Source: Levilactobacillus huananensis
GTDB lineage: Bacteria; Bacillota; Bacilli; Lactobacillales; Lactobacillaceae
DNA length: 42,275 nucleotides
Direction: 5' to 3'
Assembly: GCF_003946145.1 (NCBI RefSeq)
Contig: NZ_RHOC01000014.1
Span: 1 to 42,275, forward strand
Under the pieces are notes generated by a model. It saw nothing but the letters and a program-made list of their open reading frames with translations. It ran no database searches and was not told where the DNA came from. Numbering within the stretch: position 1 is the stretch's first letter; each line of letters opens with the position of its first letter. Shown here piece by piece: positions 7,022 to 40,342 of the stretch. Both the position numbers and the translations under genes were made by a program.

Positions 7022-7024
7022 TCA

Positions 7025-8894: not shown

Positions 8895-8910
8895 CCGAAA
8901 AGATAAAAAC

Positions 8911-8942: not shown

Positions 8943-9092
8943 GTGACGATTCATATAACGGTAAATGAGATAGAGAACCAGTCCGGCCAGCAGGATCAGA
9001 CCAACGGTAGGATTGTCACGGAAAATCCAACGGATGGCACGGAAGGTTCCGGTGCCATGTAGGCCGCCAAGTAAGGCAAAGAGTCTGGGCAT
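8940..9092 (-). CDS. Small membrane protein, 50 residues
   Basis: Begins MPRLFALLGGLHGTGTFRAI and has one clear membrane segment (TVGLILLAGLVLYLIYRYM, about residues 29-47) before a basic end. GGAGG lies eight to nine bases before the ATG. No family is recognised. It is transcribed towards the nuclease gene and its stop lies in the T run of that gene's terminator. The good ribosome site and membrane-helix design support a real gene. Confidence 0.6.
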   Translation of the reverse strand: MPRLFALLGGLHGTGTFRAIRWIFRDNPTVGLILLAGLVLYLIYRYMNRH

Positions 9093-9216
9093 GATAGCTA
9101 ACCTCCTAAATTTTTTTCTGGAGAAGTAAGTAAAAGTTAAATAAAATTAAAGACATTTACACGGATTGGCGTATGATAAAAAAAGAAAGTGTTTTGTTTA
9201 ATGAGGAGGGTTACTG

Positions 9217-10674: not shown

Positions 10675-10708
10675 GCCATTTCAGTAGTGGTTTATCGCGG
10701 ACAGGTGG

Positions 10709-10714
10709 TATGAT
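10709..10714 (+). promoter_or_regulatory. Extended -10 promoter element upstream of the small RNA candidate
   Basis: TGGTATGAT (TG at 10706-10707, -10 hexamer TATGAT at 10709-10714) is an extended -10 element. No good -35 is seen. A start near 10721 is predicted. Confidence 0.45.
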
Positions 10715-10720
10715 GAAGAC

Positions 10721-10843
10721 GTTGAAGGTCGTGGTGCTTAGCCACCGGATTGAGGCCGGGAGAACCGGTCGGTTGGCAGGGCAGACCCGCAGCAGCAATA
10801 GGTAGTATGTGTGAGAGGCGAGGACGCGGGTCCTCGCCTCTTT
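10721..10843 (+). ncRNA. Candidate structured small RNA, unidentified
   Basis: Between cls and the yfhO-like gene lies a GC-rich, non-coding 120-base stretch bounded by an extended -10 and a perfect hairpin (GAGGCGAGGAC / GTCCTCGCCTC, 10814-10840, loop GCGG, then only TTT). Inside are further hairpins: GTGG/CCAC at 10731-10745; GGCCGG-GAGAA-CCGGTC at 10754-10770; and GGG-CAGA-CCC at 10779-10788 followed by GCAGCAGCAA. Composition and structure differ from the AT-richer DNA around it. I could not match it to SRP, tmRNA, RNase P, T-box, TPP or purine riboswitch signatures. It could be an sRNA or, less likely, a leader of the gene 210 bases downstream, which has its own promoter. Confidence 0.5.
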
Positions 10844-10926
10844 GGGTTTCCCGGTGCATTTTTCAAAGGGTCAAAAATCAAGGTATGAACCCGGTCATTC
10901 CCCAGCAAATTTTAATCCGGATTTGG

Positions 10927-10932
10927 TAGAAT
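10927..10932 (+). promoter_or_regulatory. Extended -10 of the yfhO-like gene
   Basis: TGGTAGAAT (hexamer TAGAAT, TG one base upstream) lies about 120 bases before the ATG at 11055. The rest of 10844-11054 shows no gene. Confidence 0.4.
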
Positions 10933-11054
10933 CAATTCTTAAAACAAGTGACCTTGGCGGGAAAATCTCGCGGTTGAACGGGTCAATAAAAATGGGGTAT
11001 CGGACAGGGAATTAGCCTGCCGGTAAGTGAACTGTGAGTATTGGAGGAAACAAG

Positions 11055-14000
11055 ATGAAGATTGCGCGACATCGTTGGCCGCTGTGGCTGCTGTATACAA
11101 TCGCCTTTGCTATCATTGCGGCGGCGAGCTTTGGGGTGTTGGCCATGGCTAACCGAACCTTGATTTGGAATATGGACGGCGTCAATCAGCATTATCCCTT
11201 GATGCGTACGTTCCATCAGATCCTCCATCGCCAAGGCCTAGGGGGCGTGGCGGGGTGGTCATGGACTTTCGGCTTAGGAGCCGATAAACTGACAACGTTG
11301 GCCTACTACGTTCTGGGTGATCCCTTTGCCTATGTGCTAGCACTCCTCCCGTTACGCCTAATGGAGGCGGGGTATGGGGTACTGGTGATTTTGCGCCTAT
11401 ATGCAGCTGGTTTAGCCTTTCTGGCCTTCAGCCGTTGCTATGCCTTTACGCCGGGGAGTCGGCTATTAGGGACGCTGACCTACACCTTCACGGGGTATTC
11501 CCTGATGATTGGGGTGCACCATCCCTTCTTCATCTTACCGATGCTCTGGTTCCCACTACTCTTACTGGGCATCGAGCGCGTCTTTGCTGGTAAGGGCTGG
11601 CGTTTGCTGGGTCTCGTCACGGGACTCGCCGTTTTGAGTAACTTTTATTTTGCTTACATATTAGGGTTGGGCAGTCTCTGTTACGCGGTGATTCGTTACT
11701 TTAGTCTGCGTTCCCAGGGCCGACTAACCCTTAAGATTCGCACGATCTGCTGGCAATTAGTGGTTGCCGCGATCACAGGACTGTTCTTTGCTGGTGTATT
11801 ATTGGTGCCGGCTGGGGTCATGATGCTCCAGTCTACGCGGACGCTGTCGACGTTTGCCAATGGGTTATGGGTCTATCCGGCCAGTTATTACCTGACTTTG
11901 GGAAATGCAGTCCTGACCACCGGTAACGTCCTTAATTACTGGGCAATCTTGGGAATGAGTGGCCTGACGTTTTTAGGATGTGGCTATACGCTACGTCATT
12001 GGCGCCAATACCATGACTTGGCGTTGACACTGGGACTCATCGTGGTTGGGCTTGCGTTTCCAGCCGTGGCGGCGTTCTTCAATGTTATGTCGACGCCGTC
12101 CAACCGCTGGTTGCTCTTGGCGACGATTCCCTTTAACCTGGCCACGATGGTATTAGGAGATCACTTGTTTAGTCTGTCCAAGGGGGATCGTCGTTTTCTA
12201 ACGGGCCTGGCGGCGGCTTTAATTCTGGTGGTTTACGCCAGCAATGGGTTTGTTTTCAGTAATCCGCGCCGCAATCTGATTACTTATGGCCTCTTTTTAG
12301 CTTTGGTCGTCGTTGTCGTTGGTGGCCATCAGTGGTCACGACGCTGGGTTGTGGGGCTACTGGGAACATTGGTGGGGTTAAACCTGATCAGCAACGCCTG
12401 GGGTTATTATGATCCCGATGCCGGCGTGCAGGCAACTCAGCAGTTACGAAATCAGGATGCCACGCGCTACATCACGGCGTATTTTGATGGCGCACAACAG
12501 GGCCTCAGTCAAACGCCATTTAGTCGGGTCAACACAGCGCCTAACTTTAATTTACAGCGGACAGTAGGGAACAACATGACCATGGCCCATGACCTTCATG
12601 GGGTAATGTCGTATTTCTCCGTCCAAAATGGGCACCTGGGCCAGTTCAGTCAGGATGTCAAAAATGCCGAGTATGCCATGAATTCCCCCTTAGGACAACT
12701 GGATGGGCGCACAGCACTGAATCAGATTCTCGGGGTAAAGACGCTTTTTGCTCGGGACGATCAGGTTCAAAATGGTACAGCATTGCCTTACGGTTATCAT
12801 GCCGGGAAGCGAATTTACCCGGAAGAGTCAGTCTATGGCCTTTCCAATGGCACGGGAACCCGACGATTGACTACGAATTTGAACTTTCCCTTAATTTATA
12901 CGCAGCCGCAGGTGCTGACGCAAAAACAATGGCGTCGATTGTCTGCGGTAGACCGCGAGCGTAGCCTCACACAGGCCGCGGTGGTTCCGGGTAATCAAAC
13001 TAAGGTGGCCGAGGCTAACTATCATTCACCAGCACGCCACCTGAGCTACACCGTGACGGCCAATACGATTCCCGTACTGGATAGCCCCAACAAGGTTATT
13101 CAGTATCGATTGAAACAGGCCGAGGTTGGCCAAAAGAAGACGCTTAATGACAAACAGCTGGCAACCTTTGGTCAAACCTTGAAGGCGCCAAAACTGACTC
13201 TGGATCAGAACGGCCTTATGAGTCGCCAGGACGAGCAGACTTACGGGCCAATCGTTCAGATTAAACAGAATCAGGAAGCACTTCAGCGGGTTCTCAAGGC
13301 TAATCAGCGGATAGTTTTACGGAATGCCCAGGCCAACGCAACGGGACTTCATCAAGTAACGAGTGACGTTCAGGGCCAGCCAATTCAGTATACGTTGACA
13401 ATACAACGGCCCAAACAAGCTGAGGGAACAGAACTGTATCTAGCCTTTGACGGGATCAGTGCGACCCGCCAGTCGACGCGTCAACAACTTAAACAACAAG
13501 AAAATTCAAGCATCTTTGGGAGCACGCCTCTCTCGGCTTTGACGAAGCTTGATTCATGGCGGGAAGCTGTTCGGACCCCTGATCTTGGCGATTATTGGGT
13601 TACAGCTAAAACTCGAAATGGTCGCAATAGCTTTTCTCAATTTGGGATCGATAATCTTTCAGATTATGAGCCTAAGCACAACGTTCTTTTAAACCTCGGT
13701 TATTCAAAACAGCGGCGTGAGACTATTGACATTACGTTCAGTGCGACCCGGCAGATCGATTTTAAAAAGGTCAACCTGATCGCCATGCCCTATGGTAAAG
13801 ACTACGATCGCCAGGTCCACGCCATTCAATATCGGGGAATCCGGGCGGCCACAGTTCACGATAATCGCGTTACCGGGACGGTCGAGAACACCCAGTCGAG
13901 CTGGCTGACGACCTCGATTCCTTACTCGACCGGGTGGCGGTTACGAATTGATGGTAAGAAAGTCCCAACCCAGATCGTCAATGACGGGTTCGTTGGGGCC

Positions 14001-14144
14001 CCAATGAAGGCTGGTGACCACCACATCGAACTGACCTACCGAACACCGGGACTTGCGGGTGGCTGGATTTTGACTATTCTTGGTGGCATAAGCCTTGCTA
14101 GTGGTCTGGTCATGCAAGGGTGGCGGCGTTATCGACGGAAATAA
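11055..14144 (+). CDS. YfhO-family polytopic membrane protein (putative glycosyl transfer to wall polymers)
   Basis: A 1029-residue membrane protein of the YfhO family (PF09586). The first half has about 12 hydrophobic segments. A conserved N-terminal stretch, IWNMDGVNQHYPLMRTF, carries the acidic residue in the first extracellular loop typical of GT-C-fold enzymes. The region after about residue 440 is a large extracytoplasmic domain, and a last TM (GGWILTILGGISLASGLVM) is followed by a basic tail. In Bacillus and Listeria, YfhO proteins glycosylate lipoteichoic acid with undecaprenyl-phosphate sugars made by a GtcA/CsbB partner. No partner gene is adjacent here, so the substrate is inferred from the family only. 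GGAGGA lies six bases before the ATG; a GTG at 11034 has no such site. Confidence 0.85.
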   Translation: MKIARHRWPLWLLYTIAFAIIAAASFGVLAMANRTLIWNMDGVNQHYPLMRTFHQILHRQGLGGVAGWSWTFGLGADKLTTLAYYVLGDPFAYVLALLPLRLMEAGYGVLVILRLYAAGLAFLAFSRCYAFTPGSRLLGTLTYTFTGYSLMIGVHHPFFILPMLWFPLLLLGIERVFAGKGWRLLGLVTGLAVLSNFYFAYILGLGSLCYAVIRYFSLRSQGRLTLKIRTICWQLVVAAITGLFFAGVLLVPAGVMMLQSTRTLSTFANGLWVYPASYYLTLGNAVLTTGNVLNYWAILGMSGLTFLGCGYTLRHWRQYHDLALTLGLIVVGLAFPAVAAFFNVMSTPSNRWLLLATIPFNLATMVLGDHLFSLSKGDRRFLTGLAAALILVVYASNGFVFSNPRRNLITYGLFLALVVVVVGGHQWSRRWVVGLLGTLVGLNLISNAWGYYDPDAGVQATQQLRNQDATRYITAYFDGAQQGLSQTPFSRVNTAPNFNLQRTVGNNMTMAHDLHGVMSYFSVQNGHLGQFSQDVKNAEYAMNSPLGQLDGRTALNQILGVKTLFARDDQVQNGTALPYGYHAGKRIYPEESVYGLSNGTGTRRLTTNLNFPLIYTQPQVLTQKQWRRLSAVDRERSLTQAAVVPGNQTKVAEANYHSPARHLSYTVTANTIPVLDSPNKVIQYRLKQAEVGQKKTLNDKQLATFGQTLKAPKLTLDQNGLMSRQDEQTYGPIVQIKQNQEALQRVLKANQRIVLRNAQANATGLHQVTSDVQGQPIQYTLTIQRPKQAEGTELYLAFDGISATRQSTRQQLKQQENSSIFGSTPLSALTKLDSWREAVRTPDLGDYWVTAKTRNGRNSFSQFGIDNLSDYEPKHNVLLNLGYSKQRRETIDITFSATRQIDFKKVNLIAMPYGKDYDRQVHAIQYRGIRAATVHDNRVTGTVENTQSSWLTTSIPYSTGWRLRIDGKKVPTQIVNDGFVGAPMKAGDHHIELTYRTPGLAGGWILTILGGISLASGLVMQGWRRYRRK

Positions 14145-14179
14145 AGGGCAGCTATAACCCAGGAAATTAAGCGAAATTA

Positions 14180-14219
14180 AAAAGACAGCGTGACCAGTTT
14201 GACTGGTCACGCTGTCTTT
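14180..14219. terminator. Bidirectional terminator between convergent genes
   Basis: AAAGACAGCGTGACCAG and CTGGTCACGCTGTCTTT form a perfect 17-bp stem around TTTGA, with A/T runs on both sides, so it can end both the yfhO-like gene and the permease gene. Confidence 0.95.
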
Positions 14220-14232
14220 AGTTAGAGGCGGT

Positions 14233-15543
14233 TTAGCCTGCATTTAAAATCCAAAGGAAGATGACGAAGACCACGGCAAGGCCATACATCATGGGGCCCA
14301 CTTCCTTACCACGCTTGGCGGCAATCATGGTTAAGGGATAGGTGATGAAGCCCAGAGCAATGCCATCGGAGATACTGTAAGTTAGGGGCATTCCCAAAAC
14401 AATCAGAAAGGCTGGTGCGGCAACTTCAAACTTTTCCCAGTGAATACCCTTTAAGGATTGGGCCATGAGAACCCCAACGATAATCAAGGCTGGTGCCGTG
14501 ACTTGATTGGTTACGACAGCCAATAGTGGGGAGAAGAAGGCACCGAAGATGAAGAGAATTCCAGTGACGATCGCGGTAAAACCAGTTCGCCCACCCACGG
14601 CAATGCCGGCGGATGATTCGACGAAGGCGCCCATTGGGGAGGTACCCAGTAAAGACCCCACAACCATCGTACTGGAATCGGCCATTAAGGCCTTACCGAT
14701 TCGTGGTAACTTATTGTCCTTAACTAATCCAGCTTGTTCAGCCAGACCGACTAAGGTCCCGGTGGTATCGAAGAAGGTTACTAACAGAAAGGTCAGAACG
14801 ACCACGACGAGTTGAATTGAGTTGATACTTCCAATGTGTGTTAGGCCCACTAGGAAGGTGGAATGGATGCTAGGAATTGGCGCAATCAGGTGACTTGGCA
14901 ATGGAATCAAACCTGTGAGAAGACCCAGAATGGAATTGGCCACCATTCCGATAAAGATGGCACCGGGGACCTTGGCACTCATGAGGATTAGGGTGACTAA
15001 GAGGCCAAAGATGGTTAACCAAGTACTCCCGACTTGCAGGGAACCCAAGGTCACCACAGTGGACTTGTCAGCGGCAACGAGGCCACCTTGACTGAGGCCA
15101 ATGAAGGCAATAAATAACCCAATACCGGCACTAATGGCCATTTTAAGATCACGTGGAATGGCGTCAACGACCATTTCACGGAGCTTGAATGCCGTTAAAA
15201 CCATGAAGAGTAGTGAGGCCACAAAGACCCCGGCCAACGCCGTTTCCCATGGGACCTTCATACCAATAACGACAGAGTAAGCGAAGAAAGCGTTGATTCC
15301 TAAGCTAGCCGAAATAGCGATGGGATAATTGGCCATGATTCCCATGACGAAACACCCGAAGGCAGAGGCAAAGGCAGTTGCGGTGAATACTGCCCCTTGG
15401 CTAATTCCAGAGGCCCCGAGGACCTGTGGGTTAACGAAGAGAATGTACGCCATGGAAACGAAGGTGGTGAGGCCGGCTAGAATCTCGGTTCTAAAGTTGG
15501 TATTTAGCTCATTAAAATGAAAATAGTTGGCAATCTTTTGCAT
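14233..15543 (-). CDS. pbuG: Guanine/hypoxanthine permease, NCS2 AzgA-type
   Basis: A 436-residue, roughly 13-TM nucleobase:proton symporter of the AzgA/PbuG branch of the NCS2 family. Recognisable blocks are NTNFRTEILAGLTTFVSMAYILFVNP at the N terminus (quoted in part: TEILAGLTTFVSMAYI), SASLGINAFFAY (first signature), FFDTTGTLVGLAEQAGL and SSAGIAVGGRTGFTA (second substrate-binding motif). It brings hypoxanthine and guanine into the cell for salvage. The ATG at 15543 is preceded by GAGGAGCGC. PurBox-like sequences in the upstream region suggest control by PurR together with PRPP. PbuG and PbuO cannot be told apart here. Confidence 0.93.
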   Translation of the reverse strand: MQKIANYFHFNELNTNFRTEILAGLTTFVSMAYILFVNPQVLGASGISQGAVFTATAFASAFGCFVMGIMANYPIAISASLGINAFFAYSVVIGMKVPWETALAGVFVASLLFMVLTAFKLREMVVDAIPRDLKMAISAGIGLFIAFIGLSQGGLVAADKSTVVTLGSLQVGSTWLTIFGLLVTLILMSAKVPGAIFIGMVANSILGLLTGLIPLPSHLIAPIPSIHSTFLVGLTHIGSINSIQLVVVVLTFLLVTFFDTTGTLVGLAEQAGLVKDNKLPRIGKALMADSSTMVVGSLLGTSPMGAFVESSAGIAVGGRTGFTAIVTGILFIFGAFFSPLLAVVTNQVTAPALIIVGVLMAQSLKGIHWEKFEVAAPAFLIVLGMPLTYSISDGIALGFITYPLTMIAAKRGKEVGPMMYGLAVVFVIFLWILNAG

Positions 15544-28476: not shown

Positions 28477-29439
28477 ATGGAACAAACAGATGAAGCGGTT
28501 GACACTCTGACAGTGGCAGATTTTCTGACCACCACGCAATTTAAGAGGCTATCAGCCAACCAACAAAAGTATGCCGAAACGATTCTGACGGATGTGTTGG
28601 CAGCCCGTGAGACGGTGGATCTTAACCAGGGGGTCTGGACACCTCGGCAGGTAGCAGGGACGTTAGCAGCGCTCCCAAGTTTAGTTGACCAGCCACACGT
28701 TTACTATGTTGCCGTCGTTCCTGTGATGATCGCTTACTTTGAGGCCCAAGGTCATCAGGTAAAGCCCTTAATCGCGGCACTGAAGGCGGCACGCCCAGCA
28801 TTGGTGGCCAAGCACGCGGAGACTGCACAAGAAGAGGCAGATTACGATGGCGTTGTCCAACAGGTGAAGCAGTGGGTTCAAGCTATGTTTGAGCAACCCG
28901 AAGTGATGAATCTGACGATCGCCGATCAACATCACTTTGTGACGATTATTCATACTACCGCGGAACTTATGATTACCGGGAGAAAGTTGGCACCGAAGGA
29001 TTGGGACGTCGACACGTTGAGCGGCATTATGTTTGGCCCATTCACGCATCTACTGGATGAAAAAGACCGGGTTTCGGGTCTCTTTCAGTTAGTGCCTTTT
29101 GCTCTGACGACGCTCTTTACCTATCTTGAGCAAACCAATCAATTAACCCATGCCGCCGCATTGCAGGATTGGGTGCTCAAACAGCATGAGGCACTGGTGA
29201 CGATGTACAATCCGGAATTAGAGAAATTCTACGAGGGGTTAACCGAAGCGATGGAACAAGCCGGCATCGATACTCAAGATCACACAGCTGTTGATCACTT
29301 TACGCAGACCTATTTGCGCGCTCATCCAGCGATTAGTCGTGCGCTATTTACGGCGGATCGGCAGTTAAAACGGACAAAACCCGTTAAGCAAATTAAATAT
29401 AGTCGAAAACAGCGGCGCCGGCGTCGGCGCAAGCATTAG
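28477..29439 (+). CDS. Hypothetical protein with arginine-rich C-terminal tail
   Basis: A 320-residue soluble protein. The start at 28477 fits the promoter at 28413-28442 and a GGGGA ribosome site. It is mainly helical, with no signal peptide, and ends in a strongly basic tail (KYSRKQRRRRRRKH) after a lysine/arginine-containing linker. Such tails bind nucleic acids or ribosomes, but no catalytic or DNA-binding motif is seen in the body. It is acidic overall before the tail. I do not recognise the family. It is transcribed divergently from the thiolase and followed about 110 bases later by the LacI-type regulator. Confidence 0.75.
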   Translation: MEQTDEAVDTLTVADFLTTTQFKRLSANQQKYAETILTDVLAARETVDLNQGVWTPRQVAGTLAALPSLVDQPHVYYVAVVPVMIAYFEAQGHQVKPLIAALKAARPALVAKHAETAQEEADYDGVVQQVKQWVQAMFEQPEVMNLTIADQHHFVTIIHTTAELMITGRKLAPKDWDVDTLSGIMFGPFTHLLDEKDRVSGLFQLVPFALTTLFTYLEQTNQLTHAAALQDWVLKQHEALVTMYNPELEKFYEGLTEAMEQAGIDTQDHTAVDHFTQTYLRAHPAISRALFTADRQLKRTKPVKQIKYSRKQRRRRRRKH

Positions 29440-29549: not shown

Positions 29550-30551
29550 ATGGTCAAAAAGGTCACAATCACTGACATAGCTAAGGCAGCGGGTATCTCA
29601 CCAACAACCGTGTCGTTGATTCTTAATGGTAAAGGTGAGCGGTTCAGTCAGGAAACCTGTTCGCGGGTTTTTCAGTTGCGCGATGAACTCGGTTATCATA
29701 TTGAAAAGCGTCCAGTTGTGCCGCGATATGCCAAGAAAATTTACCGGCTCGGTGTTGTTATGACAGCGTTTAATCAATTTTTTTATCAGGATGTCATTAC
29801 GGGTATTCGCGAATCAGCGGGGACAGAGGTTATTGTCTCGCTCTATGAAGTGGGGAACACCTACGAGGATAATCTGCGAGACTTGAAGGGATTATTCAGA
29901 GAGCCTATTGATGCCCTAATTCTTTGTGAGCCCATAGTTCCAACGAAGATCCTTCGGGAGCTCTCTGCCGCCTTCAAAGTGCCCTATGTGATCGTTAACA
30001 GTCATGCGGCAGCTAGTGATTCGGATGTTTGGGTCGATCTGCATGAGGTTGGGATCTTGTCTGCAGAATACCTATTGGCCAATGGTCATCGGAAGATAGC
30101 GGTGGTCGTGCCCCAAGAGAATCACGCGAATTCAGAGATCGTTGCTGGGTTTCGCGAAGGACTTGCAGAATACCACCTCCAACTGGAGGAACAAGACATC
30201 TTCCGCATTGTGCCCTCCCTCAGTGAGAGCTACCGCTTTGCTAAAAACACCAATCTACAAGACTACACGGCGGTTTTTACGGCTGCGGATGAGATTGCGA
30301 TTGGGATGATGCGGGGCCTGGCCTCCAAGGGGCAGCGGGTACCGGATACCCAGTCATTACTGGGTGTGGGCAACTCTGAGTTGGATAATTATACGCACCC
30401 GCAGTTATCGTCGGTGCTGATTCCGGCATCCGATATTGGTCGGGCAGCCTTTGATAAGTTAGAAGAGCTGAATCAAAAGCCACAGACGCCGCGAGAAACG
30501 TTGAACTTGCCGATTGGACTGGTCAAACGTTCAAGTGTCAAACATATCTAA
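29550..30551 (+). CDS. LacI/GalR-family transcriptional regulator
   Basis: A 333-residue LacI-family regulator. The N-terminal helix-turn-helix is VTITDIAKAAGISPTTVSLILNG, followed by the third helix (SQETCSRVFQLRDELGYH). The periplasmic-binding-protein-like effector domain covers residues about 63-333. The hinge sequence HIEKRPVVPRYAKK lacks the usual NxxARxL hinge-helix block that inserts a leucine in the operator, so the operator contact may differ from LacI/PurR. The ATG at 29550 follows GCGAGGTG. It lies directly upstream of the ornithine decarboxylase cluster, and a 12-bp LacI-type palindrome (30647-30658) lies just behind its terminator, so control of that cluster or of itself is plausible. 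Effector unknown. Confidence 0.9.
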   Translation: MVKKVTITDIAKAAGISPTTVSLILNGKGERFSQETCSRVFQLRDELGYHIEKRPVVPRYAKKIYRLGVVMTAFNQFFYQDVITGIRESAGTEVIVSLYEVGNTYEDNLRDLKGLFREPIDALILCEPIVPTKILRELSAAFKVPYVIVNSHAAASDSDVWVDLHEVGILSAEYLLANGHRKIAVVVPQENHANSEIVAGFREGLAEYHLQLEEQDIFRIVPSLSESYRFAKNTNLQDYTAVFTAADEIAIGMMRGLASKGQRVPDTQSLLGVGNSELDNYTHPQLSSVLIPASDIGRAAFDKLEELNQKPQTPRETLNLPIGLVKRSSVKHI

Positions 30552-30561
30552 AATGTCTCAG

Positions 30562-30589
30562 GATCACCCGGTTTAGGGTGATCTTTTTT
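30562..30589 (+). terminator. Rho-independent terminator after the lacI-type gene
   Basis: GATCACCC and GGGTGATC form a perfect 8-bp stem with a GGTTTA loop, followed by TTTTTTG. It separates the regulator from the decarboxylase operon. Confidence 0.92.
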
Positions 30590-30646
30590 GTTTTTTATGC
30601 ATAGAAAATTAAAAAAGCATGAATGAAAATGAAAACGCTTAATAAA

Positions 30647-30658
30647 GCAACCGGTTGC
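30647..30658. promoter_or_regulatory. LacI-family operator candidate
   Basis: GCAACCGGTTGC is a perfect 12-bp palindrome with the central CG typical of LacI/GalR operators. It lies 58 bases after the terminator of the LacI-type gene and about 540 bases before the first decarboxylase. Binding by the neighbouring regulator is inferred from position only. Confidence 0.6.
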
Positions 30659-31071
30659 CACCTCAAACGTTCCCATTTTAAAGAAATGAAAACGGCTCAC
30701 GAAAACAAAGTCAAAAGAGACTATAAACTATTGAAAACAGATACGTTCTAGGCTATGGGCCGATCTTTAGTCGGTGTGAAGTGACCACAAAATTCGATTT
30801 TTGGTGGGGTTAGTAAAAAAAAGTAAAAATTATTTTTGAATGAAAAGCAGACGCTAAATTTAACGTTTTTTGAACGGAAATATACATTTAAAGTGAATAT
30901 TATTAGTTGTGCTCGTGAAAAGTTTCGCTAATCAAAGATGGCGGCGCCATGCGGCTTTAAGGCGAATTGGTCTGGCTTAGTGAGTGGGTAATCAATCCAA
31001 TGGATGAGTATATTTATTGATAAAACGAAAATTCCCATCATCCTCTAATGAGGGTCAAAGGGTGGTTTGAA

Positions 31072-31107
31072 ATGAAAGACCCCCTTGTCAGCGCTTTCAA
31101 AATGTAG
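31072..31107 (+). CDS. Possible 11-residue leader peptide upstream of ornithine decarboxylase
   Basis: The frame reads MKDPLVSAFKM and stops 82 bases before the decarboxylase ATG. AAAGGGTGG lies six to seven bases upstream, a good ribosome site. In enterobacteria the speF ornithine decarboxylase gene is controlled by an ornithine-sensing arrest peptide (SpeFL) in its leader; this peptide is shorter and not similar in sequence, so only the logic is comparable. There is no intrinsic terminator between it and the gene. A chance frame of this size is quite possible. Confidence 0.3.
   Translation: MKDPLVSAFKM
31086..31099 (+). promoter_or_regulatory. cre-like (CcpA) box with one mismatch
   Basis: TGTCAGCGCTTTCA differs from TGNAANCGNNNNCA at one position. 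It lies about 90 bases before the decarboxylase ATG and overlaps the possible leader peptide. Catabolite repression by roadblock is possible; the match could be chance. Confidence 0.35.
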
Positions 31108-31189
31108 TAAAAATAAGAGTGTAAGTCTTACTTCGACTCCCTCATCCGGAAGCCGTGGTAAAAATTGTAAATTTTATAAGGAGGCTCTC

Positions 31190-33355
31190 ATGGATAATTT
31201 AAAGATTGCGTCTACTGAGGAAGCTCGGCAGTATTTCACCACTACTCGTGAAATCGTCGATGCTAACGACACTGACTTCGTTGATTCTGCAGCGGTTGTT
31301 GTAATGGATGATCAACTTGATCCTATCAATGCTGTTGACGAAACAAAGTTTGGTGTGCCAGTCTTTGTTCTCAGTAAAGACAGTTCAAAGATCCAGGGCG
31401 ATTTGATGGCAAAGATTTACCACATTGTTGACTTAAACAGTAAGTCAGATGGTAAATTGGTTGATCGTGAAATTGAATCGGCTGCCGCAAAGTACGAAGA
31501 TAGTGTATTACCACCATTCTTCAAAGCCCTTAAGTCATATGTTGAACGGGGTAACATCCAGTTCGACTGTCCAGGACACCAAGGTGGGCAATACTTCGCT
31601 AAGCACCCAGCTGGTCGCGAATTCTACAACTTCTTCGGTGAAAACGTCTTCCGTGCCGACATCTGTAACGCCGATGTTGACTTAGGTGACTTGTTAATTC
31701 ACGAAGGTCCAGCTATGGATGCTGAAAAGCATGCCGCACAAGTCTTCAACGCTGACAAGACATACTTCGTAATGAATGGGACTTCAACTTCTAACAACAT
31801 CGCTGTTGGTGCTGCTGTTGCTCCCGGTGACTTGGTTCTGTTCGACCGGAACAACCACAAGTCCATTTACAACGCTGCCCTCGTTAAAGATGGTGGCCGT
31901 CCAGTTTACTTAGAAACTTCCCGTGACCCTTACGGATTCATCGGTGGGATTTATGCCCGTGACTTCGATGAAGACTACATCCGGAAGCAAGCTGCTAAGG
32001 TTGACCCAGAAAAGGCCAAGCAAAAGCGCCCATTCCGTTTAGCTGTTATCCAATTAGGGACTTACGATGGGACTATCTACAACGCACGTCAAGTTGTTGA
32101 CAAGATTGGTCACCTTTGTGACTACATCCTCTTCGACTCTGCATGGGTTGGATACGAACAATTCATTCCTATGATGAAAGACAGTTCTCCATTACTGTTA
32201 GACCTCGGACCAGAAGATCCAGGTATCTTAGTAACGCAATCAACCCACAAGCAACAAGCTGGGTTCTCACAAGCATCACAAATCCACAAGAAGGATAAGC
32301 ACATTAAGGGTCAGAAGCGTTACATCGACCACAAACGGTTCAACAACGCTTACAACCAATATGCTTCTACTTCACCATTCTACCCATTATTCGCTACGCT
32401 TGACGTTAACGCCAAGATGCAAGAAGGCGAAGCTGGTAAGAAGTTATGGCATGATGCATTGGTAACTTCCGTTAACGCTCGTAAGAGTCTGTTAAAGAAC
32501 GCAACCATGATTCGTCCATTCGTTCCACCAGTTGTTAATGGTAAGAACTGGGAAGATGCTGACACTGAAAAGATCGTTAACGACATCGACTACTGGCGCT
32601 TTGAAAAGGGTGCTAAGTGGCATGGATTTGACGGCTACGAAGACAACCAATACTTCGTTGACCCTAACAAGTTCTTGTTAACGACTCCTGGTATCAACGT
32701 TGAAACCGGTGAATACGAAGACTTCGGTGTTCCAGCCGTTATCTTAGCTAACTACTTGCGTGAACACGGAATCATCCCAGAAAAGAATGACTTGAACTCT
32801 ATCTTATTCTTGATGACTCCTGCCGAAACGCCAGCTAAGATGAACAACTTGGTAACCCAAATTGTTAACTTCGAAAGCTTGATCAAGGCTGATGCCCCAT
32901 TATCTAAGGTATTGCCTCGTCTGTACGCACGTAACAAAGACCGTTACGCCGGCTACACTATCAAGCAACTTTGCCAAGAATTACATGACTTCTACAAGGG
33001 TAACAATGCTAAGGAATACCAAAAGAAGATGTTCTTAGCTGACTACTTCCCAGAACAAGCAATGACGCCATACGATGCTAACGTTGAATTGTTACACAAC
33101 AATGCTAAGTTAGTTAAGTTGAGTGATATTGAAGGGGAAACTGCCCTTGAAGGTGCTTTACCATATCCTCCTGGTATCTTCTGTGTTGCCCCAGGTGAAA
33201 AGTGGACCAAGGTTGCTCAAACTTACTTCTCAATTCTTGAAGCAGGTATTAACAAATTCCCTGGTTTTGCACCAGAAATCCAAGGTGTTTACTTTAAGCA
33301 AGAAGACGGCAAGACTGTTGCTTACGGTTACGTTTACGATTCAAGCAAAAAGTAA
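31190..33355 (+). CDS. Ornithine decarboxylase (first of two), PLP-dependent, group III
   Basis: A 721-residue inducible/biodegradative-type ornithine decarboxylase, converting ornithine to putrescine and CO2 while consuming a proton. ATG 31190 has AAGGAGG six bases upstream; the frame opens further 5' from a TTG without support. It has an N-terminal wing domain (1-105), then the PLP fold-type I core: FDCPGHQGGQYF, DRNNHKS (His stacking on PLP), YILFDSAWVGYEQF (Asp binding the pyridine nitrogen), STHKQQAGFSQASQIHKKD with the Schiff-base Lys354, and EGALPYPPG near the C terminus. It strongly resembles the Lactobacillus 30a enzyme and E. coli SpeF/SpeC as I remember them. Frequent use of optimal codons (AAC, GAA, GGT, TAC) suggests high expression. 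Next gene after 33 bases. Confidence 0.94.
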   Translation: MDNLKIASTEEARQYFTTTREIVDANDTDFVDSAAVVVMDDQLDPINAVDETKFGVPVFVLSKDSSKIQGDLMAKIYHIVDLNSKSDGKLVDREIESAAAKYEDSVLPPFFKALKSYVERGNIQFDCPGHQGGQYFAKHPAGREFYNFFGENVFRADICNADVDLGDLLIHEGPAMDAEKHAAQVFNADKTYFVMNGTSTSNNIAVGAAVAPGDLVLFDRNNHKSIYNAALVKDGGRPVYLETSRDPYGFIGGIYARDFDEDYIRKQAAKVDPEKAKQKRPFRLAVIQLGTYDGTIYNARQVVDKIGHLCDYILFDSAWVGYEQFIPMMKDSSPLLLDLGPEDPGILVTQSTHKQQAGFSQASQIHKKDKHIKGQKRYIDHKRFNNAYNQYASTSPFYPLFATLDVNAKMQEGEAGKKLWHDALVTSVNARKSLLKNATMIRPFVPPVVNGKNWEDADTEKIVNDIDYWRFEKGAKWHGFDGYEDNQYFVDPNKFLLTTPGINVETGEYEDFGVPAVILANYLREHGIIPEKNDLNSILFLMTPAETPAKMNNLVTQIVNFESLIKADAPLSKVLPRLYARNKDRYAGYTIKQLCQELHDFYKGNNAKEYQKKMFLADYFPEQAMTPYDANVELLHNNAKLVKLSDIEGETALEGALPYPPGIFCVAPGEKWTKVAQTYFSILEAGINKFPGFAPEIQGVYFKQEDGKTVAYGYVYDSSKK

Positions 33356-33388
33356 ACTCATTCGGAAATAGAAAGGAACTTATCGAAA

Positions 33389-35575
33389 ATGGCTGAGTCT
33401 TTGAAAATAGCTAGCTCTGAAGGAGCTCTTAAATTCTTCAGTACTGACCGTGAGATCGTCGACCTCGCAGGTAAGACTGACTTCACCGATATTGCTGCTG
33501 CCGTCGTCACTGATTCTGACGAAGATATTGCCAGCGTAAAGTTAATTAATGCAACGAAATTTGATATTCCTGTATTTATGTTAACTGCTGACTCTGCAGC
33601 TCTCGATGCAAGCGTTCGTGAAATGGTCTTCCATTTCTTGGACAACAATGACGAGAGTTACCGTAACATCTACGACAGTGAAATTGAAACAGCTGCCGCT
33701 ACGTATGAAGATAAAATGATTCCTCCATTCTTCAAGGAAATGGTACATTACGTTGAAGAAGGTAACCTGAACTTTGATACGCCAGGTCACCACGGTGGAC
33801 AATTCTTCTTACGTCACCCAGCTGGTCGTGCACTGTACAACTTCTACGGAGAAAACTTATTCCGTTCTGACGTAAGTAGTTCTGACGTCGAAGTTGGTGA
33901 CTTGTTGACCCACGGTGGTGCTGCCCTTGATGGTGAAAAGCATGCCGCACGTGTCTTCAACGCTGACAAGACTTACTTCGTTATGAATGGGACGACCACT
34001 TCTAACGCAATTGTTGATATTGCAGCTGTTAAGCCAGGCGACTTGGTATTGTTCGACCGGAACAACCACAAGTCTAACTACAACGCTGCCTTGGTACAAG
34101 CTGGTGGTTTACCAGTTTACCTCGAAACTGAACGGAACCCATTCGGTTTCATCGGTGGTATCGACGATGCTGCTTTCAATGAAGATTACATCCGTGCACA
34201 AGCTGCTAAGGTGGATCCAGAAAAAGCTAAGGAAAAGCGTCCATTCCGATTAGCTATCATCGAATTAGGGACTTACGATGGGAGTATCTACAACGCACGT
34301 CAAGTTATCAAGCGGATCGGTCGTCTTTGTGACTACATCCTCTTTGACTCTGCATGGGTTGGTTACGAACAATTCATTCCTATGATGAAGGATAGCTCAC
34401 CATTGCTGATTGATGACTTGGGACCAGAAGATCCAGGTATCTTCGTTACCCAATCTGTCCACAAGCAAATGGGTGGTTTGTCACAAGCTTCCCAGATTCA
34501 CAAGAAAGATAAGCACATTAAGGGTCAGAAGCGTTACATTGACCACAAACGGTTTAACAACGCCTACATGAAGTACACGTCTACTTCACCATTCTACCCA
34601 ATCTACTCCACACTTGACGTTAACGCCAAGATGATGGAAGGCCCTGCCGGTGCCAAGATGTGGATCGACACGGTTAAGTTGGGTATCGAAGCTCGTAAGC
34701 GGATGCTTAAGGAATCCACGATGTTCACGCCATTCATTCCTACCACTGTTCATGGTAAGAAGTGGGAAGACGTTGATACGGACACGATTGCTAACGACAT
34801 CGACTACTGGCGCTTCAGTAAGGGTGAAAAGTGGCACTCATTTGCCGGCTATGCTGACAACCAGTACTTCGTTGACCCACTGAAGTTCATGTTGAAGACA
34901 CCAGGTATCAACATGGAAACCGGTGAATATGAAGACTTCGGTGTTCCCGCAACGCTGATTTCCAGCTACTTGCGTGAACATGGGATTATCCCTGAAAAGT
35001 CTGACTTGAACTCAATCTTGTTCTTACTCACGCCTGCTGAAACTAAGGCTAAGTTGGACAACTTGGTTAACTTCATTCTTCAACTTGAAAAGTTGATCAA
35101 GGAAGATGCCCCATTGAGCGATGTCTTACCTAAGATTTACGCTGAAAACATTGACCGGTACCGTGGTTACACGATCCGTCAACTTTGCCAAGAAATTCAT
35201 GACTTCTACAAGAAGTCAAATGCCAAGGCATATCAACGTGCATTGTTCCGGGAAAAGACTTGGCCAAAGCCAAGCATGACCCCATACGATGCTGACAAGG
35301 CATTAGTTGCTAACAATGCTAAGTTAGTACCATTGGACAAGATCGTTGGTGAAACTGCTCTTGAAGGTGCACTTCCATATCCTCCTGGTATCTTATGTGT
35401 TGCCCCAGGTGAAGTTTGGAACAAGGAAGCCGCAACTTACTTCACGATTCTTCAAGAAGGTATCAACAACTTCCCTGGATTTGACCCTGAAATCCAAGGT
35501 GTCTACATGGAACCTCAAGAAGACGGTCGCGTTAAGGCTTACGGTTACGTTTATGACAAGGATGCCGCAAAATAA
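33389..35575 (+). CDS. Ornithine decarboxylase paralogue (second of two), diverged active-site region
   Basis: A 728-residue tandem paralogue of the preceding enzyme, same fold and length, with AAAGGAA a dozen bases before the ATG. PLP-binding elements are kept: FDTPGHHGGQFF, DRNNHKSNY, YILFDSAWVGYEQF and SVHKQMGGLSQASQIHKKD with Lys359. Several residues that match between the first copy and known ornithine decarboxylases are changed: LLIHEGPAMDAEKH becomes LLTHGGAALDGEKH, DICNAD becomes DVSSSD, and QQAGFSQ after the lysine becomes QMGGLSQ. Ornithine remains the likely substrate given the PotE gene behind it, but another diamino acid, a different pH optimum or hetero-oligomer formation is possible. 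Codon use is equally optimised. It is probably co-transcribed with its neighbours. Confidence 0.9.
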   Translation: MAESLKIASSEGALKFFSTDREIVDLAGKTDFTDIAAAVVTDSDEDIASVKLINATKFDIPVFMLTADSAALDASVREMVFHFLDNNDESYRNIYDSEIETAAATYEDKMIPPFFKEMVHYVEEGNLNFDTPGHHGGQFFLRHPAGRALYNFYGENLFRSDVSSSDVEVGDLLTHGGAALDGEKHAARVFNADKTYFVMNGTTTSNAIVDIAAVKPGDLVLFDRNNHKSNYNAALVQAGGLPVYLETERNPFGFIGGIDDAAFNEDYIRAQAAKVDPEKAKEKRPFRLAIIELGTYDGSIYNARQVIKRIGRLCDYILFDSAWVGYEQFIPMMKDSSPLLIDDLGPEDPGIFVTQSVHKQMGGLSQASQIHKKDKHIKGQKRYIDHKRFNNAYMKYTSTSPFYPIYSTLDVNAKMMEGPAGAKMWIDTVKLGIEARKRMLKESTMFTPFIPTTVHGKKWEDVDTDTIANDIDYWRFSKGEKWHSFAGYADNQYFVDPLKFMLKTPGINMETGEYEDFGVPATLISSYLREHGIIPEKSDLNSILFLLTPAETKAKLDNLVNFILQLEKLIKEDAPLSDVLPKIYAENIDRYRGYTIRQLCQEIHDFYKKSNAKAYQRALFREKTWPKPSMTPYDADKALVANNAKLVPLDKIVGETALEGALPYPPGILCVAPGEVWNKEAATYFTILQEGINNFPGFDPEIQGVYMEPQEDGRVKAYGYVYDKDAAK

Positions 35576-35610
35576 CCTAGACTTTATGAGATTCTAGATT
35601 TATACTAATG

Positions 35611-35637
35611 AATGTCGGTCCTTTTTGGGCCGGCATT
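35611..35637 (+). other. Intercistronic hairpin between the second decarboxylase and potE
   Basis: AATGTCGGTCC pairs with GGGCCGGCATT (two G-U pairs) around TTTTT, but CTAGCAATTG follows in place of a T run. It is more likely an mRNA-stabilising or partial terminator structure than a full stop, so potE would get reduced read-through. The gap to potE shows no clear promoter. Confidence 0.6.
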
Positions 35638-35683
35638 CTAGCAATTGTTCGTTTCAAAATTTTATTCAATTGAGGTTAGAAAA

Positions 35684-37048
35684 ATGGCAGAAAATAGTAC
35701 GAAAATGGGTGTTATGCAGCTGACCATCATTACGGCTGTTAACATGCTTGGTTCCGGGATTATTATGTTGCCATCTAAGTTAGCACAAGTTGGGACGATG
35801 TCCGTTCTCTCTTGGATTGTAACTTTAGGTGGGGCCCTCTGTCTGGCATGGGTTTTCGCCAGAAACGGTATGTTTAGTACAAAGTCCGGTGGTATGGGTG
35901 GATACGCCGAATACTCATATGGTAAAGACGGTAGTTTCATGAGTAACTTTACTTATGGGTTATCACTGGTTATCGCCAACGTGGCCATCGCGGTTTCCGC
36001 CGTTGGTTATTTGACGGTGTTCCTGGACATTACACTGAAGCCAATCGAAGTTACTTTCTGGGTTATCGGAACGGTTATCATTACGACCTTGCTTAACTTC
36101 GGTGGTTCTAAGTTGACTGGTCGGATTGGTTCCGTAACTGTCTGGGGTGTTATTCTCCCAGTTGTTATCTTGGCCGTATTAGGCTGGTTCTGGTTCTCAC
36201 CATCACTGTACGCTGCTTCATGGAATCCACACAATGTTGGATTCTTCGACGGAATTGCTTCATCAATTCCAATTACGTTATGGGCTTTCTTAGGACTTGA
36301 ATCTGCGGTTGCCAACATGGATGCCGTTGAAAACCCACGTAAGAACGTTCCTATCGCCGTTATGGCTGGGACGATTGGTGCCGGGATTATTTACATCCTG
36401 TCCACTAACGTTATGGCTGGTATTGTTAAGAACTCAGCATTGCTGACTTCTAACGCCCCATTCGGTTTGACTTTCTCAACCATGTTCGGTGGCTGGGCTG
36501 GTAAAGTCGTTGAAGGTATCATGGTTCTTGCTTGTCTTGGGTCATTATTGGGTTGGCAATTTACTATCGCCCAAGTGTTCAAGTCATCCGCTGATGAAGG
36601 TTACTTCCCAGCAATCTTCTCTCGTGTTTCCAAGAATGGTGCCCCAATTGCCGGTATGACTATCTTGTTAATTGTTCAAATTCTGTTGTCATTCATGACT
36701 ATCAGTCCTGACTTGAACAAACAATTTAACGTTTTAGTTAACTTGGCTGTTATCACCAACTTGGTTCCTTACATCTTGTCAATGGGTGCTGCAAAGACCA
36801 TTCAACAAAGTGCCGGGATCAGCAAGCACAACATGACCTACAAGGTTACGAACTTCTTAGCTGTCGTTGCCGCAATTTACTCATTGTACGCAATGTACGC
36901 TTCAGGTGCGCAAGCCATGGTCTTAGGTTCATTAGTTACCTTCTTCGGTTGGACTATGTACGGTTTCGTTTCGCCTAAGTTTGACTTAGACCAAAAGGAA
37001 ATTGAAAAGGCCAACAAAGAAGCTGCTACTGAAGCTGAAGCTAACTAA
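35684..37048 (+). CDS. potE: Ornithine/putrescine antiporter, PotE type
   Basis: A 454-residue, 12-TM transporter of the APC superfamily, closely resembling E. coli PotE along its whole length. Shared blocks are VNMLGSGIIMLPSKLAQVGT, FSTKSGGMGGYAEYSYGKDG, LWAFLGLESAVANMDAVENP, STNVMAGIV, GSLLGWQFTIAQVFKSS and QFNVLVNLAVITN. Trp200 and Glu206 correspond to PotE Trp201 and Glu207, residues reported to recognise putrescine. It exchanges external ornithine for internal putrescine, so with the decarboxylases it generates proton motive force and raises internal pH. ATG 35684 follows GAGGT by seven bases; the frame upstream to 35645 has no ribosome site. It is the last gene of the cluster, with a terminator behind it. 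Confidence 0.94.
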   Translation: MAENSTKMGVMQLTIITAVNMLGSGIIMLPSKLAQVGTMSVLSWIVTLGGALCLAWVFARNGMFSTKSGGMGGYAEYSYGKDGSFMSNFTYGLSLVIANVAIAVSAVGYLTVFLDITLKPIEVTFWVIGTVIITTLLNFGGSKLTGRIGSVTVWGVILPVVILAVLGWFWFSPSLYAASWNPHNVGFFDGIASSIPITLWAFLGLESAVANMDAVENPRKNVPIAVMAGTIGAGIIYILSTNVMAGIVKNSALLTSNAPFGLTFSTMFGGWAGKVVEGIMVLACLGSLLGWQFTIAQVFKSSADEGYFPAIFSRVSKNGAPIAGMTILLIVQILLSFMTISPDLNKQFNVLVNLAVITNLVPYILSMGAAKTIQQSAGISKHNMTYKVTNFLAVVAAIYSLYAMYASGAQAMVLGSLVTFFGWTMYGFVSPKFDLDQKEIEKANKEAATEAEAN

Positions 37049-37067
37049 TTATTAGTTGCCTAGAAAA

Positions 37068-37105
37068 AGTCGTCGGTTCGCGTGAGCGAGCTGATGGCTT
37101 TTTTA
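37068..37105 (+). terminator. Rho-independent terminator after potE
   Basis: AGTCGTCGGTTCG pairs with CGAGCTGATGGCT through a 13-bp stem (four G-U pairs), followed by TTTTTT. It closes the decarboxylase operon. Confidence 0.85.
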
Positions 37106-37282: not shown

Positions 37283-38809
37283 TTAGGCTTCGTCAGCTAG
37301 CGATTCTAAGACGTTAGCGGCAACGACAGGATCGGAAGGATAAGGTGTATCTACACCGTTCACCTTTTGATACTTGTCCTCACCTTTACCAGCCAGAACG
37401 ACGAGATCCGTATTGGATGCGCCGGTAATCGCTTGGCGAATAGCGTCTTCACGCTTAGGAACGATAGTGGTGGCTACCTTTGAGTGGTCGATGTGACTGT
37501 CGATTTCCTCGGCAATCTTGATGGGGTCTTCGTGACCCGGATCATCAGCCGTCAGGTAGGCGACATCAGCGAAATCGTTCAAGGCACGGGCGAAACCTTC
37601 TCGCCGGTCTTCACCCTTATCACCGGTACTGCCGAGAACGGCAATAACCCGTTGATCAGGGAACTGAGTGCTCAGAAAGCCAAGTAATGCATTCATACTG
37701 CCCCAATCGTGAGCATAGTCCACATAGATGGTTCCGTGATTCTTGGTCCGAGTAAATTGCATACGGCCAGGAACCTTAGTATTAGCCAAGCCATATTGCA
37801 TGTCCTCAGCGGAAGCACCTGCAATTGCAGTGGCTAAAATGGCTGCGGAGGCATTACCTTGGTTAAAGTCACCAGGAACGGAGACATTGTACGTTTGTGC
37901 AAGACTAGCGAGTGTGGGGTTGTCGCTATTAACGACTAATTTGAAGGTACTTGCCGTCAAACTAGCTTGGTTATCAGTGATCGACACACTGGCTGAATCT
38001 GAGTTCATTCCATAGGTGAAGATGTGATCGGGAGCGGTGGAGACTTGCGAGGCAGCGAGGACTTCATCGAAGTGGTCGGTGTCGGCGTTAATCACCACAT
38101 TACGGGAGTTCAGCAGTAACTGCTGTTTGCAGAACAAGTAGTTTGCAAAGTCAGGATGTTCGTTAATGCCGATATGGTCTGGTGTGATATCTAAGAAGAT
38201 ACCCACATCAAATTGTAAACCGTAAACCCGATCAAGGAGGTAAGCCTGGGAGGCAACTTCCATCACCAGGTACTTCGCACCGTTATCCACGGCTTCTCGC
38301 ATTTCCTTGAATAGATCGAAAGATTCTGCGGTGGTCAAGTGGGCTTTGAATTGGTTCTTAGCACCCTGACCAACAATCCGGTCGATAGTCGAGAACATGG
38401 CAACCTCACCTGGATGAGCATGTTCAAGGATATTGTGAGTGAAGTAAGTGGAAGTGGTTTTACCCTTGGTTCCCGTGTACCCAATCAGAAATAATTCATT
38501 TTGGGGAAAACCGAAGAATAGTTGAGCGGCCAAGGACATAGCCTTACGCACGTCGCTGACGATAATCCCCGGAACGGAAACCACGTCACTATAATCAGTT
38601 TCAGCGAGATAACTAGTGGCCCCATTAGCAATGGCTTGCTTTAGGTAATCAACTGAAAAGTTCTTGCCTTTGCAGATGAAGAGACCATTCTCACTGACGT
38701 TGCGAGAATCATAAGCTAATGATTCGAAAGAAACGTCGTCTGATTTAAGCGAATTACTTTGGTACAAATCATGTTCTTGTAGTAACGCAATCAGTTGGAA
38801 TGCTTTCAT
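37283..38809 (-). CDS. murE: UDP-MurNAc-tripeptide synthetase MurE
   Basis: A 508-residue cytoplasmic Mur ligase that adds the third residue to UDP-MurNAc-L-Ala-D-Glu. The ATP site is GYTGTKGKTTSTYF. Mur-ligase residues follow in HLTTAESFDLF, EVASQAYLLDRV, DITPDHIGIN and YVDYAHDWGSMN. The substrate-selecting loop reads TADDPGHEDP where DAP-adding enzymes have DNPR, so L-lysine (or possibly another diamino acid) is the likely substrate. ATG 38809 has AAAGAGG seven bases upstream; an ATG six codons earlier is weaker. It follows lysS by 21 bases, clearly one operon, which links lysine charging and lysine use in the wall. Confidence 0.93.
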   Translation of the reverse strand: MKAFQLIALLQEHDLYQSNSLKSDDVSFESLAYDSRNVSENGLFICKGKNFSVDYLKQAIANGATSYLAETDYSDVVSVPGIIVSDVRKAMSLAAQLFFGFPQNELFLIGYTGTKGKTTSTYFTHNILEHAHPGEVAMFSTIDRIVGQGAKNQFKAHLTTAESFDLFKEMREAVDNGAKYLVMEVASQAYLLDRVYGLQFDVGIFLDITPDHIGINEHPDFANYLFCKQQLLLNSRNVVINADTDHFDEVLAASQVSTAPDHIFTYGMNSDSASVSITDNQASLTASTFKLVVNSDNPTLASLAQTYNVSVPGDFNQGNASAAILATAIAGASAEDMQYGLANTKVPGRMQFTRTKNHGTIYVDYAHDWGSMNALLGFLSTQFPDQRVIAVLGSTGDKGEDRREGFARALNDFADVAYLTADDPGHEDPIKIAEEIDSHIDHSKVATTIVPKREDAIRQAITGASNTDLVVLAGKGEDKYQKVNGVDTPYPSDPVVAANVLESLADEA

Positions 38810-38830: not shown

Positions 38831-40342
38831 TTACTCGTTAGGACGCATCGTTGGGAATAGCATGACGTCACGAATTGAAGGTGCATCCGTTAACAGCATG
38901 GTCATCCGGTCAATCCCGATTCCAAGTCCACCAGTAGGTGGCATACCATATTCCATGGCTTCCAGGTAATCTTCGTCAATCCCATGGGCTTCTTCGTTAC
39001 CGGCATCACGTTCAGCATCTTGTGCTTCGAAACGTTGACGTTGGTCGACAGGGTCGTTTAATTCGGTAAAGGCGTTCCCATATTCATTACCATTAATGTA
39101 TAACTCGAAACGGTCAGTGAAACGACCATCCTTAGGGTTCTTCTTAGCTAATGGTGAGATTTCAACTGGGTGACCGTAAATGAAGGTTGGGTCGATCAAG
39201 GTATCTTGAACCTTGTCTTCGAAGAAGGCGTTGATGAAGTGACCAACAGTCCAGTAGTCTTCGTATTCAACATCATTTTCGTCAGCTAACTTACGAGCAT
39301 CTTCAACGGACATCTTCTTCCAGAAGTCGATACCAGTAACTTCCTTAACAGCATCAACCATGTGAATCCGCTTGTATGGAGATTCCAGGTCAATAGGGGT
39401 GCCTTGGTAAGTGATGTGGCCATCGCCGTGAAGCTTACGAGCCGTGTAACGGAAAATGTTTTCCGTTAAGTCCATGACGTCGTTATAGTCCGTATACGCG
39501 GTATAAACTTCGATCATGTTGAATTCAGGGTTATGACGGGTGTCAATCCCTTCGTTCCGGAAGTCCTTGCCTAATTCGTAAACCTTTTCGAATCCACCGA
39601 CAATTAAGCGCTTCAGGTAAAGCTCCGTGGCAATCCGGAGATATAAAGGAATGTCGAGAGCGTTAGAAGAAGTGATGAATGGCCGTGCTTCCGCACCACC
39701 GGCTTGCGTCTGTAAGACAGGCGTGTCGACTTCAATGTAACCTTGGTTATCCAGGTATTCACGCACAGCGCGCTTGATCTGGGTAACCTGCATAAAGCGG
39801 TTAAAGCTATCGCGGTTAGCGATTAAGTCCAAGTATCTCTTACGGTAGATAGATTCCTGGTTCGTTAAACCGTGGAACTTGTCAGGTAACGGACGTAACG
39901 CCTTTGATAAGAATTCAAGTTGCGTAATTCGAATCGTTAATTCATCGGTATCCGTCTTGATAACGTAACCGTGAATACCAATAAAGTCACCTAAGTCCAA
40001 AGAAGTATATAAGTCGTAGGCAGATTCACCGAGTTCATCTTGCCGTGCGTAGCCTTGGATAGTACCGAAACGGTCGAGAATATCGACGAATCCGGCCTTC
40101 CCACTACCACGCTTAGCGGTTACCCGCCCAGCAAGAGTCACATTATGCTTATCTTCGGCCAACTCTTCTTTAGTATTTTGACCGTACTTGTCGTTAAGTG
40201 TCTTGCTAGTATCGGTCCTGTCAAACCGGTGTCCAAATGGCGCGATGCCTTGTTCACTGAGCTTGTTCATTTTGTCCCGCCGAACCTGCATTTGATCGTT
40301 TAAGTCGGGTTGCGTGGAACTGTTTGTATGATTATTGCTCAT
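38831..40342 (-). CDS. lysS: Lysyl-tRNA synthetase, class II
   Basis: A 503-residue class IIb synthetase charging tRNA-Lys. It has an OB-fold anticodon-binding domain ([20 protein letters not shown], about residues 65-170), motif 1 around [20 protein letters not shown], motif 2 [20 protein letters not shown] and motif 3 [15 protein letters not shown] near the C terminus. The ATG at 40342 has AGGAGG eight to nine bases upstream. A promoter lies at 40398-40426; I saw no T-box leader, as is usual for lysS. In related lactobacilli lysS is next to an rRNA operon, as here. Confidence 0.97.

Follow-up and report, generated by a model that had tools for sequence, protein, structure and literature searches.

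Why would a lactobacillus keep two full-length, diverged amino acid decarboxylases side by side ahead of a single antiporter, and what controls them? The question is raised by the module at positions 29550-37105 of a contig of Levilactobacillus huananensis (NZ_RHOC01000014.1), which was examined whole, its 42,275 nucleotides being the window referred to below. From its gene content, the grouping of its enzymes and of PotE, the co-occurrence of its regulator, a promoter-like element and its insertion beside murE-lysS, we infer substrates, exchange, an acid role and regulation. The locus is very probably a known type of three-component ornithine/lysine system, that is, an operon that handles two substrates by decarboxylation and antiport and serves in acid stress and energy supply. 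With little better than even confidence, we further propose that ornithine/lysine decarboxylation in Levilactobacillus and Furfurilactobacillus has a LacI-family switch lineage of its own, missed by published work, and that the region from the thiolase gene to murE-lysS is a genus exchange region, where modules of agmatine deiminase (AgDI), tyrosine decarboxylase (TDC) and ornithine/lysine decarboxylases (ODC/LDC) take each other's place. The tandem cluster being already known, the regulator lineage and the exchange region would be the parts of the locus worth following.

All module genes lie on the plus strand, in the order of the initial annotation: LacI-type regulator, gap, decarboxylase 1 (ODC_A, from odcA), decarboxylase 2 (ODC_B) and PotE (Table 1). 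Both decarboxylases proved full-length, as had been claimed, each with the N-terminal, major and C-terminal Orn/Lys/Arg decarboxylase domains of Pfam and each keeping K355 together with H223, D316, H354 and E532 (1ORD numbering), which we take to be active-site residues. They are 68% identical. Strongly optimised codons and selection on both copies had also been asserted, and both assertions held: among 17 window genes, ODC_A (36.8), ODC_B (39.8) and PotE (40.5) had the lowest effective numbers of codons, followed by LysS (44.6), and the ratio of nonsynonymous to synonymous substitution rates (dN/dS, three comparisons for each enzyme) was 0.027-0.093, as under purifying selection. The PotE profile score was 689.8 bits against a curated NCBIfam cut-off of 560.

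The substrates of the two enzymes were assigned by phylogeny and by residues. A 31-row tree put ODC_A into a supported clade that includes the L. saerimneri ornithine decarboxylase of known structure (1ORD, of whose record a 53-aa stretch was matched exactly in the L. saerimneri genome, G316); ODC_A is most likely an ornithine decarboxylase and, by its Pfam domains and this clade, one of the N-terminal wing-domain type. Outside the genus, the enzyme most like it is that of Furfurilactobacillus milii (G148), at 87% identity. ODC_B was placed in a 6-row clade (support 100/100) with L. saerimneri Ldc and P. wasatchensis Odc1, both assayed lactic acid bacterium lysine decarboxylases in the tree. 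The row standing for Odc1, to which ODC_B is 71% identical, comes from G036, and we equate the two because the published odc1_F primer was found at the gene start there. In 1ORD numbering ODC_B has T127, H131, S159, S161, T393 and L494. In a second alignment, positions 131, 393 and 494 were H, T and L in 6/6 B rows, whereas 26/26 ODC-clade rows, most of them unassayed enzymes compared here by alignment, had Q, A/S/M and N/C. E. coli CadA/LdcC have M, T and I/V at these positions and thus have T393 in common with the B rows. At 127, 159 and 161, the B rows have T/S/S, like CadA and LdcC; in the ODC clade the prevailing residues are C/C/A, seen in 25/26, 24/26 and 23/26 rows. The module had been annotated for ornithine only, which stands for ODC_A but probably not for ODC_B, which groups with lysine decarboxylases; of the divisions of labour that had been suggested (by pH, growth phase or substrate), this grouping favours the one by substrate.

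Several details pull ODC_B back towards the ODC side. The subclade holding the assayed lysine decarboxylases does not include the two Levilactobacillus B rows, which form its sister group; once CadA/LdcC were added, the 6 B rows stayed together only at 78/18 (the 26 ODC-clade rows at 89/87); and of 23 positions that set the other four B rows apart, the Levilactobacillus B rows share only 9, with D126 and G132 ODC-like where those four differ. Because of the sister position, the weak 78/18 support, the private residues and D126/G132, ODC_B could be dual-specific; it likely prefers lysine. A third decarboxylase paralogue was seen in F. milii G148 (L046 14123-16477), 57-59% identical and on a long branch, with no PotE match seen beside the gene; it has S159/S161 as in lysine decarboxylases and Q131 as in the ODC clade.

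Among the closest published systems is the odc2-odc1-potE cluster of P. wasatchensis, whose three genes match those of the window in kind and order, the first being of ODC type and the second of LDC type (PMC8928434). Odc2 used ornithine ~600-fold better than lysine, and Odc1 used lysine only. In the window, too, odc, the ldc-type gene and potE adjoin on one strand in this tandem arrangement, and the same cluster has been reported in Levilactobacillus paucivorans, hunanensis and lindianensis and in Lentilactobacillus kribbianus (PMC8928434). The arrangement is not new: it is published, with both enzymes assayed in P. wasatchensis, and its presence in related genomes with both copies characterised, which had been named as grounds for dropping the view that two copies side by side are unusual, is thus largely on record, including these three Levilactobacillus species. 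What differs is the LacI-type gene preceding the operon here; the available text of PMC8928434 mentions no regulator. L. saerimneri has a three-component system of Odc, Ldc and an antiporter common to both, but there odc lies apart from ldc-potE (PMC3569274; G316; system also covered by PMC8928434 and PMC10880667). A Loigolactobacillus rennini metagenome-assembled genome carries potE as well as two decarboxylase genes, one resembling ODC and one LDC (PMC10880667). The odc-potE locus of Furfurilactobacillus rossiae/milii (PMC5838238) shares the closely related ODC, the promoter-like element described below and a LacI-type gene directly upstream, whereas no LDC-type gene is adjacent there and PotE is 63% identical. 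In F. rossiae, odc-potE is induced by ornithine and acid and protects from acid (PMC5838238).

Decarboxylases of ODC/LDC type occurred in 5/35 Levilactobacillus genomes (that of the window, G012, G015, G020 and G034, four of the five being close relatives), in tandem in all five. A family draw of 397 genomes gave 19 with a near-full-length match of at least 57% identity: 7 tandem (counting G036, where the contig end cuts the first gene), 2 with A and B apart (G271, G316) and 10 with neither arrangement; G091, G109 and G231, with partial pieces only at 55-57%, were left out. A plasmid search with positions 30550-33500 returned 108 records, all 60-80% identical, the best being staphylococcal speC, and no near-identical copy.

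PotE tends to group with the PotE of LDC-bearing clusters and of G390 (support 80/100). The group is weak in two respects: it is not starred in the tree (which has CadB as outgroup and one starred branch in all), and it holds G390, whose PotE adjoins an A-type enzyme. The G390 locus (L052 6228-9779) is of reversed order, with potE before the decarboxylase, and combines LDC-type PotE grouping with that A-type enzyme.

Two other accounts of the enzyme pair were considered. Both enzymes might be ornithine decarboxylases that differ in the pH or growth phase at which they work best; NCBIfam PRK13578, 'ornithine decarboxylase', does score above its cut-off for both, and the Levilactobacillus B rows have the ODC-like D126 and G132. 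We nevertheless regard this as quite improbable, since ODC_B lay outside the ODC clade in both trees, its H131, T393 and L494 differ from all 26 ODC-clade rows, and its relative Odc1 of P. wasatchensis had no detectable ornithine activity (PMC8928434). Alternatively, a recent tandem duplication within this lineage might have produced the pair, through innovation-amplification-divergence as proposed for P. wasatchensis (PMC8928434). Two adjacent, same-strand genes at 68% identity would suit such an origin, as would the older duplication across lactic acid bacteria giving A and B, which the approximately unbiased (AU) test did not reject (p=0.4). A duplication private to tandem clusters (an A+B clade of the window, G034 and G243), however, was rejected (AU p=1.45e-41), and A-type and B-type genes lie ~56 kb apart in G271 and ~23 kb apart in L. 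saerimneri G316, so that a recent duplication appears extremely improbable. F. milii also tells against it, pairing an 87%-identical ODC with a PotE only 63% identical. Because the closest ODC_A relative outside the genus sits with so different a PotE, the cluster looks as if it was assembled from two sources, one supplying odc and the other ldc-potE.

Between the LacI gene and odcA lies a gap of 638 nt. TTGTMA-N13-GTAGTAAAAATA was found upstream of odc in 8/8 loci examined (the five operon-bearing Levilactobacillus genomes and three Furfurilactobacillus loci), ~75 nt before odcA in the window, G012, G015 and G020; in G034 an IS30 element cuts it off from odcA. The chance expectation for GTAGTAAAAATA in the window is 0.01 occurrences. 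The case for a promoter rests on this conservation because a plain sigma-70 consensus scan did no better than shuffles (11 sites vs 12.0 expected). The element TGTCAGCGCTTTCA over the -35 is cre-like or LacI-family-like, with a presumed function; G020 lacks the central CG. A palindrome, GCAACCGGTTGMC, stands upstream of odcA in 5/5 operon-bearing genomes, and G015 has one more such site. Its standing as an operator is lowered by the reversed control, which also gave 5 matches over the five genomes; because the control is equally frequent, rarity is no evidence here, and only the shared place speaks for the palindrome.

The LacI-type gene co-occurs closely with the operon. A match of at least 50% identity was present in 5/5 operon-bearing genomes, four of which are closely related, and in 0/30 other genus genomes; in G020 the gene is at the end of another contig, adjoining the left-flank gene. 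It forms one clade (98/95, the 7-row split starred) with odc-adjacent LacI proteins of Furfurilactobacillus, separate from a 33-36%-identical paralogue of every genus genome, three of these paralogues being in the tree, which is shaky near the root and has PurR and L139 as long branches. In Furfurilactobacillus G148, G093, G123 and G171 a LacI-type gene lies directly upstream of odc, and a related LacI gene beside odc is found in more than one genus. The published F. rossiae odc study, with 4,165 bases sequenced, found no regulator near odc. No published LacI-odc link turned up in a literature search whose coverage leaves out most subscription journals. The label of dedicated regulator is supported by co-occurrence, phylogeny and the shared promoter-like element, while in function the protein is a candidate.

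A LacI gene that is a sugar regulator, unrelated to the operon and adjacent by chance, would agree with its best NCBIfam model, ribose RbsR, though at 225 bits this is below the cut-off of 382. It would also agree with the lack of a LacI match in the 5 kb upstream of the G243 tandem cluster and upstream of odc in Bombilactobacillus G184, and with G034, where an in-frame TAG interrupts the LacI gene and the stretch from that gene to odcA holds a 162-aa open reading frame (ORF) on the opposite strand as well as the IS30 element, while both decarboxylases are open. These points, like the palindrome being no rarer than its control, count against an operon-specific switch. Yet chance would have to produce the 5/5 against 0/30 distribution, the 98/95 clade with odc-adjacent Furfurilactobacillus proteins apart from the common paralogue, and a promoter-like element common to both genera; we consider it unlikely, though a serious contender. 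The gap itself had been read as a long leader. Its length is real, but the terminator-like stem behind the regulator gene and the promoter-like element would leave a 5' untranslated region of ~70 nt, the rest of the 'long leader' probably being mostly upstream DNA. Its length, in which the window sequence has short ORFs, would suit a leader that acts through a regulatory RNA or a leader peptide, as SpeFL in E. coli, where speF-potE has an annotated speFL leader. We judge such a leader very improbable, with the conserved promoter-like element so close to the start codon, no Rfam match in the window at the gathering score and a gap fold that is not unusual (z -1.49, 2/20 shuffles folding equally well). 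A tRNA scan of the window also found nothing. The disruptions in G034 are at L041 9532-10461, 11068-11556 and 11671-12708 (IS30 transposase, opposite-strand ORF and in-frame TAG in the LacI gene).

The chromosomal setting was mapped across the genus. lysS and murE have one match each, side by side, in 34/35 genomes, the exception being the 72%-complete G008; with G008 unmapped (no murE/lysS match) and G013 unreadable (5,281-base contig), 33 genomes were readable, 28 of them odc-less. The left-flank gene and murE are <700 bases apart in 20 of these 28, and the module lies between the two in the window, G012, G015 and G034, an order that the two contigs of G020 also fit. The region holds agmatine deiminase genes in 10/11 genomes that have them and tyrosine decarboxylase genes in 4/7; 13/28 readable odc-less genomes carry TDC or AgDI there, at varying positions relative to the left-flank and thiolase genes. 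An AgDI or TDC match was found in 0/5 operon-bearing and 17/30 other genomes (Fisher p=0.045, though the close kinship of four of the five makes the genomes non-independent). Lucas, in 2007, reportedly described the tdc/AgDI acid resistance locus in L. brevis, in which the two are linked. That Levilactobacillus brevis locus (PMC3499163) likewise consists of amine modules in this chromosomal region of the genus, but with other enzymes and substrates (tyrosine, agmatine). Family models matched no arginine deiminase, agmatine deiminase or tyrosine decarboxylase in the window's genome; because the first is missing, the arginine deiminase route cannot supply ornithine, and the exclusion of that source weighs against the proposed role. 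The idea, prompted by E. coli lysU lying one gene away from cadBA, that an operon consuming lysine might come with a second LysS/MurE of its own was rejected on the single lysS and murE matches. LDC-type modules adjoin lysS in two other genera, in differing orientations (L042 of G243, 5518-14655; L044 of G271, 3710-10062).

Table 1. Features of the ornithine/lysine decarboxylation locus and its flanks (window positions).
Feature	Position	Strand	Remark
LacI-family regulator, 333 aa	29550..30551 (ATG at 29550, stop to 30551)	+	Pfam LacI and Peripla_BP_3
Intrinsic terminator-like stem-loop 3' of regulator gene	30560..30585	+	consensus match only
Palindrome GCAACCGGTTGCC, candidate LacI-type operator	30647..30659	.	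placed upstream of odcA
Candidate operon promoter TTGTCA-N17-TAAAAA	31085..31113	+	conserved across two genera
cre-like / LacI-family-like element TGTCAGCGCTTTCA on top of -35	31086..31099	.	found in window, G012, G015
Ornithine decarboxylase (most likely) ODC_A, 721 aa	31190..33355	+	same clade as 1ORD (L. saerimneri Odc)
Probable lysine decarboxylase ODC_B, 728 aa	33389..35575	+	6-row clade that holds both assayed lysine decarboxylases
12-bp RNA hairpin, no T-run, between decarboxylases and potE	35610..35638	+	equivalent in G034
PotE diamine/amino-acid antiporter, 454 aa	35684..37048	+	TIGR04299 above cut-off
Terminator-like stem-loop 3' of potE	37063..37104	+	consensus match only
Left-flank conserved protein, no Pfam match	28480..29439	+	near murE in odc-less genus genomes
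MurE, right flank	37283..38809	-	single match per genome, 34/35 genus genomes
LysS, right flank	38831..40342	-	single match per genome, 34/35 genus genomes

The hairpin upstream of potE possibly tunes potE expression. Its G034 equivalent has the same position and stem length, with letters largely different. A hairpin between decarboxylase and potE also folds in two Furfurilactobacillus loci and in G066, and a strong one was not seen in five other clusters with short gaps before potE.

In the proposed operon, ODC_A would convert ornithine to putrescine and ODC_B lysine to cadaverine, and a single PotE of dual-substrate type would exchange each amino acid for the corresponding amine, so that each turnover would consume one cytosolic proton and build membrane potential. 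The LacI-family protein probably controls one promoter ending ~75 nt before odcA. Family models label both genes ornithine decarboxylase; reading the second as a lysine decarboxylase would add cadaverine to the predicted amine risk. The candidate regulator would make the sensing of ornithine/lysine and acid by lactic acid bacteria directly testable for this pathway. The shared region, if true, would account for the exchange of amine traits among species.

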